The position numbers and the translations under genes are program-made. A stretch of 64,000 bases of DNA from Rhodobacteraceae bacterium KLH11. GTDB taxonomy: Bacteria; Pseudomonadota; Alphaproteobacteria; Rhodobacterales; Rhodobacteraceae. Location: assembly GCA_000158135.1 (NCBI GenBank), contig DS999531.1, positions 2,784,008-2,848,007 of the forward strand, given 5' to 3'. The notes beneath the pieces were generated by a model. That model was not told where the DNA came from. It did no database searches and saw only the letters and a program-made list of their open reading frames with translations. Below, in pieces: positions 62,093 through 64,000 of this stretch; within the stretch, counting starts at the first letter, position 1, and each line of letters starts with the position of its first letter.

Positions 62093-62152
62093 ACATAGTA
62101 ATTTGCGGCAAATCTGTATAATGCTCCTCTTGTAAGAGTTGAGGGGTTGATC

Positions 62153-62791
62153 TTGAACAATTTGCTGGAACATTTCGTAACGCTTTGGGTTGTGATTGAC
62201 CCCATTGGCACGATCCCCGTCTTCATCGCTGTCACTGCCGGGATCGCGGCGGGGGCGCGCCGGAAAACTGCATTGCTGGCTGCGCTGGTCAGCGCTGGTA
62301 TTTTGCTGTTCTTCCTCATCTTCGGACAGTTGGTAATCGAAGCGCTGGATATCGGCCTGAACTCTTTTCAGGTGGCTGGCGGGATCATCCTGTTCCTCTT
62401 CGCGCTGACCATGATTTTTGGCGAAAGCAAACAGGCAGTTGAACAGCGTCAGGCTGAAGAAGATGCAGATGATCAGTTGCACAAGACCAACCCGGCCATA
62501 TTTCCGCTGGCAGTGCCGTCTCTGGCCTCGCCGGGGGCGATGCTGGCCATCGTGGTTCTAACCGACAACAACCGATACAGCATTGCCGATCAAAGCATCA
62601 CCGCGCTGGTGATGCTGGCGGTGATCGCTATTGCGTTTGTTCTGATGCTGTTGGCCGAACCTATCATACGTCTGATCGGGCATTCCGGCGCTGCAATCAT
62701 CAGCCGCGTGATGGGGATGATCCTGGCCTCGGTCGCGGTGAACTCGGTCCTGTCCGCGACGATCGCGATCATCAAAACCGGCGAGCTATAA
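62153..62791 (+). CDS. MarC-family integral membrane protein
   Basis: A 212-residue membrane protein with six hydrophobic segments. The family-typical ...VVIDPIGTIPVFIAVTAG motif (residues 13-30) and PLAVPSLASPGAMLAIVVLT are present. Function is unknown; the older antibiotic-resistance link is not supported. I select the TTG at 62153, six bases after GAGGGG, over a TTG at 62147. A -10-like TATAAT occurs at 62117-62122. Confidence 0.85.
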   Translation: MNNLLEHFVTLWVVIDPIGTIPVFIAVTAGIAAGARRKTALLAALVSAGILLFFLIFGQLVIEALDIGLNSFQVAGGIILFLFALTMIFGESKQAVEQRQAEEDADDQLHKTNPAIFPLAVPSLASPGAMLAIVVLTDNNRYSIADQSITALVMLAVIAIAFVLMLLAEPIIRLIGHSGAAIISRVMGMILASVAVNSVLSATIAIIKTGEL

Positions 62792-62828
62792 AAAAACCGC
62801 CGCACCTTCCGGGCGGAAAGGGCGGCGG
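62791..62828 (-). terminator. Intrinsic terminator on the minus strand, after the microprotein gene
   Basis: CCGCCGC (62797-62803) pairs with GCGGCGG (62822-62828), with a further internal stem. On the minus strand it is followed by seven T residues (from the A-run at 62790-62796). On the plus strand there is no T-run. It therefore belongs to transcription from the right, i.e. the gene at 62976-63098, not to MarC. Confidence 0.7.
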
Positions 62829-62975
62829 CAGGCTATGCGTGTCTCATGTAGGGTCCGGATAACCGCACAGGGCCGAGGCAGGCCCCTTCAAGGGAAATGG
62901 GACAGGCAGGTCACCCTTGACTATGACGGGGAGACAAGCGCGGTCGTATCGGCATGAGATCGCAGGCAGAAAGTC

Positions 62976-63098
62976 TTAAAACCCGGTCGGCAGATGAAGG
63001 GCAACCACCAGCATCACCACAAGTGAGACCACCCCGACAGCATCCTGCAAAATCGTCGATTGCGAACGGCTGAAAGCGGTCTTGATCTGGGTCAGCAT
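62976..63098 (-). CDS. 40-residue single-span membrane microprotein of unknown function
   Basis: An open frame of 40 codons starting at ATG 63098 and ending TAA at 62976-62978. The product begins MLTQIKTAFSRSQSTILQDA and continues with a single hydrophobic segment (residues 21-35, VGVVSLVVMLVVALH), ending LPTGF. GGAGGTGA stands five bases before the ATG, an excellent ribosome binding site. A LexA-type box (63168-63182) lies upstream and a terminator (62791-62828) downstream, so the gene appears to be an independent transcript between marC and recG. Design resembles small LexA-controlled division inhibitors such as Caulobacter SidA; this is analogy, not homology. Not recognised otherwise. Confidence 0.7.
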   Translation of the reverse strand: MLTQIKTAFSRSQSTILQDAVGVVSLVVMLVVALHLPTGF

Positions 63099-63167
63099 GG
63101 TCTCACCTCCGGTCTGGGCTTAATCCTTTGTTGACCTTTTGTTCTCATATTCCAGTGAGTCGGTAAA

Positions 63168-63182
63168 GAACTTTTTAAGAAC
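63168..63182 (-). promoter_or_regulatory. LexA-type SOS box GAAC-N7-GAAC
   Basis: GAAC (63168-63171), seven bases, GAAC (63179-63182): the reverse complement of GTTC-N7-GTTC, the LexA box described for alphaproteobacteria. A third GAAC follows at 63189-63192. The site is 70 bases before the microprotein start codon, where it would cover a -35/-10 region on the minus strand. Confidence 0.55.
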
Positions 63183-63209
63183 ATTTGTGAACTTTATGGG
63201 ATTTCCCAT

Positions 63210-64000
63210 CTAACCCACTGAAATCAAACGAATCGCCTGATCCTGTTTCATGAGCCACAGAAGAACACGCGCGGCCTGCCCCCGGTCCGAAGTGAGTTTC
63301 GGGTCAGCAGACAGCAGGGTACGCGCGTCCGATTGCGCCACGGCCATCAGCCCGGCCTGACGTTCCAGATCGGCAATCCGGAATTTTGGAAGGCCCGATT
63401 GCGCCGTGCCAATCAGATCCCCCGCCCCGCGCATCTGCAGATCGGTTTCGGCGATGCGGAATCCATCCTCGGTTTCACGCAACACCTCCAGCCGTTTCCG
63501 CCCGCCTTCGCTCAGCGGCGGTTGATACATCAACAAACAGGTCGAGGCATCTTCGCCACGCCCAACCCGCCCCCGCAGCTGGTGCAATTGCGCCAGCCCG
63601 AATATTTCGGCCCGTTCGATGACCATGATGGTGGCATTGGGTATGTTGACCCCGACCTCGATCACAGTGGTCGCAACCAGTACTTTGGTGCGTCCGGCCT
63701 GAAACGCGGCCATAGCGGCATCTTTGTCGACCGGGGGCATCTGGCCATGCACAAGGCCCACAACATCGTCGCCCAGCAGCGCGCGCAACCGCTTGAACCG
63801 TTCTTCCGCCGCGGTCAGGTCCGAAACCTCGGATTCGTCGACCAACGGACACACCCAGTAACATTGTTTGCCCGCATCAATCGCGTTGCGCAGATGGGTG
63901 ACAACCTCCTCCATCCGCTGCGTGCTGACAATCGCCGTCCTGATCGGTTTCCGGCCGGGCGGCTTTTCATCCAGCACCGAGACGTCCATGTCCCCGTACT
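63210..64000 (-). CDS. recG: ATP-dependent DNA helicase RecG, C-terminal part
   Basis: The C-terminal ~260 residues of RecG, which reverses stalled forks and drives Holliday junction branch migration; the gene continues past the window end. Helicase motifs visible are motif IV (QCYWVCPLVDES), motif V (VATTVIEVGVNIPNATIMVIE), motif VI (QLHQLRGRVGRG) and the family-typical DLQMRGAGDLIGTAQSGLPKFRIADL, followed by the C-terminal wedge-like closing LLWLMKQDQAIRLI. It reads on the minus strand. The start is outside the window. The LexA-type box lies downstream of its stop, so recG itself is not the target. Confidence 0.93.
   Translation of the reverse strand, partial: YGDMDVSVLDEKPPGRKPIRTAIVSTQRMEEVVTHLRNAIDAGKQCYWVCPLVDESEVSDLTAAEERFKRLRALLGDDVVGLVHGQMPPVDKDAAMAAFQAGRTKVLVATTVIEVGVNIPNATIMVIERAEIFGLAQLHQLRGRVGRGEDASTCLLMYQPPLSEGGRKRLEVLRETEDGFRIAETDLQMRGAGDLIGTAQSGLPKFRIADLERQAGLMAVAQSDARTLLSADPKLTSDRGQAARVLLWLMKQDQAIRLISVG

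Follow-up and report, generated by a model that had tools for sequence, protein, structure and literature searches.

In Caulobacter crescentus, SidA, a LexA-regulated protein of 29 aa, inhibits FtsW (PMC4211646, PMC12700426). DidA of Caulobacter is an inhibitor of 71 aa that acts on FtsN; it is SOS-independent and is controlled by DriD (PMC4211646). In Escherichia coli, LexA regulates two peptides of the inner membrane, TisB (29 aa) and DinQ (27 aa) (PMC8309996). The LexA motif of Caulobacter, which belongs to the same class as the bacterium studied here, is GTTC-N7-GTTC (PMC12700426). A paper on LexA of D. shibae predicts other targets of this repressor, and its main text does not contain the word recG (PMC6473078). 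We found no description of the gene reported here, or of its 3' RNA, in the open-access literature. Our searches of that literature, none of which was aimed at division alone, also gave no SOS division inhibitor named for Rhodobacteraceae. The main text of a paper on small RNAs of R. pomeroyi contains none of the words recG, marC, SOS and LexA, and its supplement could hold this RNA (PMC4809877).

We analyzed a stretch of 64,000 nucleotides from the marine Rhodobacteraceae bacterium KLH11, which is called the window here and whose positions are used below. An earlier note made from the letters of this DNA had proposed that a short open reading frame beside recG encodes an SOS-induced membrane microprotein of Rhodobacterales. 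The frame, MLTQIKTAFSRSQSTILQDAVGVVSLVVMLVVALHLPTGF, is present on the minus strand at 62976-63098 and consists of 40 codons and a stop codon. The ribosome binding site GGAGGTGA lies at 63103-63110 on the minus strand and is visible at most of the genus loci whose sequences were compared. The earlier note had called this site perfect and had placed it five bases before the ATG; the site itself is there, but the spacing to the ATG (63098) is four bases.

Upstream of the gene is the 3' part of recG (63210-63998, minus strand), identified by the Pfam families RecG_dom3_C and Helicase_C. The convergent downstream neighbour is marC (62147-62791, plus strand; Pfam MarC). The location beside recG holds across the family, and a recG match was found at 130 of 132 loci, that is, at 31/31, 26/28, 27/27 and 46/46 in four locus sets, which overlap because some places are in more than one set. 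The gene marC looks like a later neighbour of the locus, since it is frequent in the genus (30/31) and rarer in the other sets (4/28, 1/27 and 15/46; 50/132 in all), whereas a NifU-like gene is found at 120/132 loci.

The microprotein gene is real and is distributed throughout the Rhodobacteraceae. In a search of 61 genomes, the frame was found in all 37 genomes of the genus, the own genome included, and was absent from all 24 genomes of other families of the class. Among 31 genus sequences the dN/dS value was about 0.13, and the variable sites at codon positions 1, 2 and 3 numbered 20, 11 and 36, of 40 each. This dN/dS value indicates that the microprotein is under selection. The check suggested in the earlier note, conservation of both frame and box with synonymous substitutions, gave the frame in 37/37 genus genomes and the N7 box in 135 of 136 upstream regions. 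The named close relatives that carry the gene, taken from a second collection in which 80 of 216 loci were kept, are mostly Ruegeria.

In the wider family, a search with the single sequence gave a match in 203 of 295 genomes at E<=0.01, and a search with a profile (A2) built from 52 microprotein sequences gave one in 249 of 290 at E<=0.001. Counted by genus, 248 of 289 genera were positive, and when good-quality genomes alone were considered the value was 220/255. The figure of 249/290 is a lower bound, because one genome lacking a profile match (G105) keeps the upstream array, followed by a divergent small membrane protein that has the same pattern and ends in KDAIGAFAIIAMLYIGLFIPSL. A frame fitting the search pattern was missing at six loci (L165, L178, L188, L196, L278 and L302), and L278 does carry the gene although the pattern missed it. 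The locus counts should not be read as numbers of independent species, because some places were fetched repeatedly (for example, L053 and L194).

A profile search of 386 genomes of the class gave no credible relative outside the family. That is, 42 of the 386 had a match at E<=0.1; the strong matches were in six family genomes (E 7e-16 or better), and the other 36 were weak (best E 4.9e-4) and were mostly short pieces of long frames. A search for plasmid and phage sequences gave no match at E<=0.1, and a mobile origin was rejected. Short frames are common, and the frame and its box could in principle both have arisen by chance; this explanation is scarcely credible, being ruled out by the family-wide conservation together with the purifying selection.

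The microprotein is near 40 residues in length among the relatives. Among the 52 sequences D19, L26 and L34 never vary, and M1, T15, G22, L30 and P37 hardly do. The pattern of the protein can be written as TL.QDA.G..(S/A)LVVML...LHLP. The single hydrophobic segment described in the earlier note was borne out, with a maximum Kyte-Doolittle value of 2.69 in a 17-residue window. The N-terminus contains lysine or arginine, about 17 hydrophobic residues make up the helix, and the tail has three to four residues. By the positive-inside rule the microprotein is predicted to be a single-pass protein with its N-terminus inside and its C-terminus outside.

We also compared the microprotein with known protein families. 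Pfam has no family for it, and a search of the PDB gave no relative of solved structure. In NCBIfam there was a chance match alone (E 0.13), which scored 10.8 bits where the cut-off is 975. In PHROGs nothing was found for the protein of the window, and 12 relatives gave two single weak matches (0.16 and 0.24). Membership in a known protein family was rejected on these results, Pfam and PDB being empty and NCBIfam and PHROGs giving chance matches alone.

The region upstream of the gene contains two conserved elements. The earlier note had described a box GAAC-N7-GAAC, which is GTTC-N7-GTTC on the other strand, with a third GAAC. The box is present at 63168-63182, and the third GTTC lies ten bases further up. 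The reader's box is in fact the middle of a nearly invariant array, GTTC-N6-GTTC-N7-GTTC-TTTAC, and the whole array, GTTCACAAATGTTCTTAAAAAGTTC, occupies 63168-63192 on the minus strand (operator 1). The pattern GTTCN6GTTCN7GTTCTT was found in 199 of 290 family genomes, and the reversed control matched in 13/290, a figure obtained by counting rows by hand. In the own genome the pattern occurs once and the reversed control does not occur. The microprotein is downstream of the array at 27 of 30 array loci examined, the three others being L165, L178 and L188.

Among 136 distinct upstream regions, GTTC-N7-GTTC was present in 135, the triple array in 128, and GAAC-N7-CAAC in 127; up to 27 of the 136 regions come from loci that had been found by means of the array pattern itself, which biases these counts. 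An ungapped alignment of 128 regions showed that TTTAC is nearly invariant and that the distance between ATGAGAAC and the array does not vary. L020, a genus member, has four copies of GTTC, all spaced by N6, and has lost the N7 box. Judging from this locus, ten-base phasing may suffice.

The second element, GAACAAAAGGTCAACA (63129-63146), had been missed in the earlier note because one core base differs (CAAC). This operator 2, GAGAACAAAAGGTCAACA on the minus strand, is a LexA-type box with one core mismatch and is oriented like the boxes of lexA and recA. Its second half-site is CAAC in 127 of the 135 regions scored, TAAC in 5, GAAC in 2 and AAAC in 1, and the array is more invariant than operator 2 across the upstream regions. 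In one divergent lineage (L271), operator 2 is a full GAAC-N7-GAAC box (GAACACTTAAAGAACA, judged by eye), and this supports the reading of operator 2 as a LexA site. Between the operators is TTTACC (63162-63167, minus strand), a hexamer that possibly serves as the -35 element. In our interpretation, TTTAC would be the -35 element and the -10 region would lie under operator 2, and LexA might bind on both sides of the promoter. In other systems, such as the colicin genes, a pair of LexA operators keeps a toxic product in check.

In order to score such sites, we used a LexA matrix made from seven boxes of the own genome, which were picked for their repair-type neighbours. A box GAAC-N7-GAAC was present upstream of lexA and of recA in 11/11 genus genomes each, and such a box was near the gene start at 28 of 30 lexA loci of the wider family. 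In the own genome GAAC-N7-GAACA occurs at 61 sites, compared with 26 for the reversed control. Part of these 61 sites was covered by 20 stretches, from which the matrix boxes beside uvrA, uvrD, an imuB-type polymerase, an imuA-like gene and a radical SAM gene were taken; the boxes of lexA and recA completed the seven. Pfam backs the identities of uvrA, uvrD, the polymerase and the radical SAM gene; imuA was identified by eye and has no Pfam match. Boxes whose neighbours were glyoxalase, SnoaL-like, helix-turn-helix or unidentified genes did not enter the matrix. All 20-mers of the window were scored on both strands, and each of the seven boxes scored from 15.7 to 26.0 bits when it was itself left out.

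The best 20-mer in the window was GAGAACAAAAGGTCAACAAA (63127-63146; 23.9 bits), which ends 28 bases 5' of the start codon; the next best scored 15.3 bits. Operator 2 had a median score of 21.7 bits, based on 135 of the 136 regions. In contrast, the N7 box of the earlier note scored 11.5 bits with a softer matrix and ranked 9th of the 127,962 twenty-mers in the window. By the matrix this box alone is indistinguishable from chance, because several chance 20-mers score as high or higher. The claim that a LexA-type box controls the gene therefore has to be modified: the array is conserved, but the best LexA-like site is operator 2 and the box first pointed out is weak. Operator 2 appears to fit a LexA operator of the local consensus and is conserved, with one core base differing and a promoter placed around it by prediction. 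We regard LexA control of the microprotein gene as a well-supported prediction.

The distribution of LexA itself was also compared. Of the family genomes with a profile match to the microprotein, 20 of 20 have LexA, as do 17 of 20 that lack such a match; one of the latter is G105, with its divergent microprotein. The co-occurrence of LexA and the microprotein says little, because LexA is nearly equal in the two groups of genomes. Two other LexA-type sites of the own genome were observed. One is a triple half-site, GAAC-N7-GAAC-N7-GAAC (L144:1461-1486; C6 near 893260), which overlaps the start of a frame of up to 143 aa without a Pfam match and is possibly a further LexA target. The other is the box GAACATTATGGGAACA (L149:1523-1537; C6 near 2340621), which is just past the end of a helix-turn-helix gene.

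Between the stop codon and the terminator there is a conserved structured RNA in the 3' UTR (62829-62972, minus strand), which the earlier note had missed. The terminator attributed to the gene at 62791-62828 exists on the minus strand, but its stem bounds had to be corrected: folding gives a stem at 62797-62828 followed by a T-run (62790-62828 together). A simple terminator scan of the window did not list this stem, and the terminator pattern was unmatched at 14 of 168 loci, genus members included. The RNA is conserved in a particular style, that is, the unpaired C-rich motifs are kept and both strands of the stems vary. The fold of the window's own RNA has a long closing stem P1 and two inner hairpins, whose loops contain CUGCCUGUCC and UGCCUC. 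Three sequences stayed untrimmed, and for the comparison of relatives 123 were thinned by similarity to 83. Three hairpins were found in 47 of the 83, the first loop being CUGUCCC, two hairpins in 24 (the window included), and four or five in 12. The motifs CUGUCCC, CUGCCUGUCC, UGCCUC and a CCC run are in loops and bulges, and the CCC run is part of an internal loop, on the 3' side of P1.

The covariation demonstrates the fold of this RNA. RNAalifold applied to 30 sequences gave the closing stem P1 with 12 pairs, 7 of them with double changes. In this unfitted alignment of 30, 96.9% of cells were paired and there were 26 double-change cells against 6.3 in shuffled alignments, with 0/500 shuffles as high. 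In an alignment of 81 distinct sequences fitted to the model, which leans towards structure, 95.1% were paired, 12/12 pairs had double changes, and there were 131 double-change cells against 23.1 shuffled and at most 24 in slid controls. P1, counted as nine pairs or more, was in the minimum-energy fold of 77 of the 83 sequences, compared with 22% of shuffles; the median z was -2.9, and 66 of the 83 were below -2. With the terminator the fold had z -3.1 in the window and z -3.3 in a relative from another genus, and without it the window's own element had z -1.6.

A model of the RNA (R1) matched 83 of 92 loci at E<=1 and 80 at E<=0.01; of the 30 sequences on which it was trained, 25 are among those loci. 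R1 found nothing at the three array loci without the microprotein, nor at six loci with it (L056, L175, L184, L185, L187 and L297). In whole genomes under strict filters there was a match in 49 of 149, once each, and by-eye comparison placed 49/49 immediately 3' to the microprotein or the array, in the same orientation. The own genome was matched once, at 62829-62972. Operator and protein are kept in L175, L187, L270, L271 and L381, where R1 found no RNA. We therefore think that the protein is the core of the locus and the RNA a frequent companion. A search of both strands of 62600-63400 against Rfam 15, up to E 1, gave 0 matches, and the RNA is a candidate new family without an Rfam entry.

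We also looked for sequences complementary to the loops. The 11-mer complementary to the second loop has two sites in the own genome. One of them is the RNA gene itself in antisense. The other, common to 4 of 7 genus genomes searched, falls within open frames of both strands and was not counted as an RNA target because the region is coding whichever strand is read. Thus, the complementarity search of the own genome and the genus genomes gave no convincing target of the RNA loops.

Taken together, these results lead us to the reading, to which we give a probability of roughly 0.6, that the locus is a LexA-repressed, damage-inducible unit, old in the family, that makes an SOS brake of the inner membrane directed most likely at the divisome. 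We infer LexA binding, induction, the transcript ends, the topology, the target and the role of the RNA as follows. In undamaged cells LexA would occupy operator 2, which covers the expected -10 region, and probably the GTTC array as well, and the promoter between them would be shut. After RecA triggers the cleavage of LexA, a short mRNA of roughly 340 nt, ending at its own terminator, would be made and translated into the 40-residue protein. Its positively charged N-terminus would lie in the cytoplasm, a single helix would span the membrane, and the end in the periplasm would be very short. At the inner membrane the microprotein would then serve as an SOS brake. Its most likely target would be the late divisome (FtsW/FtsI/FtsN), which may be held inactive as by SidA; this SidA-like role, drawn by analogy, is our leading guess. 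A specific partner, and hence the divisome, is favoured in our judgement because the polar residue at the membrane edge and the helix end are strictly conserved. At most loci examined the same mRNA would end in the folded 3' RNA, which may either stabilize the mRNA or serve as a regulatory RNA.

The peptide might instead be an SOS membrane toxin of the TisB or DinQ type, which would lower the membrane potential and make damaged cells dormant, with no binding to the divisome. Its size class, single helix and LexA-type control agree with such a toxin as well, and we consider this somewhat unlikely rather than implausible. The structured RNA, however, is in the 3' UTR on the sense strand and not antisense, and no antitoxin RNA was seen at the locus in the Rfam search of both strands. 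Moreover, D19 is invariant and T15, G22 and P37 are nearly so, a conservation that suggests a protein partner over mere membrane insertion. The RNA, on the other hand, could be the main product and the frame secondary. It would then be a regulatory RNA under LexA control, and its loops (CUGUCCC, CUGCCUGUCC) would cover ribosome binding sites. The strong covariation, the repeated exposed C-rich motifs, the own terminator, and the constant position of the single copy in the 49 matched genomes speak for this idea. We nevertheless think it improbable: the protein and the operator persist in the lineages without an R1 match, the dN/dS of 0.13 shows a protein under selection, and no convincing complementary site was found.

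A further question is whether LexA is the regulator at all. The GTTC array might be the operator of another regulator, and the gene would then answer another stress. The half-site spacing of 10, 10 and 11 bases, the low score of the array by the LexA matrix (11.5 bits) and its greater invariance relative to operator 2 would be understandable on such an assumption. Operator 2, however, is the top LexA-like match and is oriented like the lexA and recA boxes, and GTTC-N7-GTTC is the LexA motif of Caulobacter in the same class, so that we judge a regulator other than LexA to be just as improbable as the RNA being the main product. The LexA-repressed unit making an inner-membrane SOS brake is the reading that we prefer.

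What is new here beyond the earlier note is the structured 3' RNA, operator 2 and the family-wide spread. The proposal of an SOS-induced membrane microprotein of Rhodobacterales stands as regards the small membrane protein, its recG neighbour and the conserved frame and box, but its scope is the whole family and the operator that best resembles a LexA site had escaped it. Found once per genome in most genera, the gene is a ready candidate for an SOS checkpoint effector of Rhodobacteraceae, and no part of the protein is more strongly conserved than the operator array. The RNA attached to the gene shows clear compensatory changes and may point to a dual-function SOS RNA. We tentatively suggest, as a possibility of some weight, that a division-halting microprotein and a released 3' RNA, whose C-rich loops would silence a second set of mRNAs, have been co-inherited through much of the Rhodobacteraceae.

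Finally, the locus can be compared with known systems. LhrC and the Rsa RNAs resemble the 3' RNA in having C-rich motifs of the UCCC type. In these RNAs the UCCC motifs are in loops, and RNAs with UCCC motifs in Gram-positive bacteria probably act by masking ribosome binding sites. LhrC and Rsa differ from our RNA in that they belong to another phylum, whereas the RNA described here is attached to an mRNA and is without a convincing target. YneA, SosA and other SOS division inhibitors are alike in being damage-induced inhibitors of division, but they come from Gram-positive bacteria; our similarity search for the microprotein in this respect was limited to Pfam and NCBIfam. DidA is likewise a small single-pass membrane protein induced by damage, but through DriD and independently of SOS (PMC4211646). 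TisB and DinQ are inner-membrane peptides of similar size under LexA (PMC8309996), but they are paired with antitoxin RNAs, whereas the conserved RNA at our locus is sense and downstream. SidA, too, is a very small inner-membrane protein of an alphaproteobacterium under LexA-type control (PMC4211646, PMC12700426). The microprotein differs from it in having 40 aa and in being known here only from another family, and the two are likened here by description. The microprotein locus further differs from that of SidA in possessing a second operator and a structured 3' RNA.
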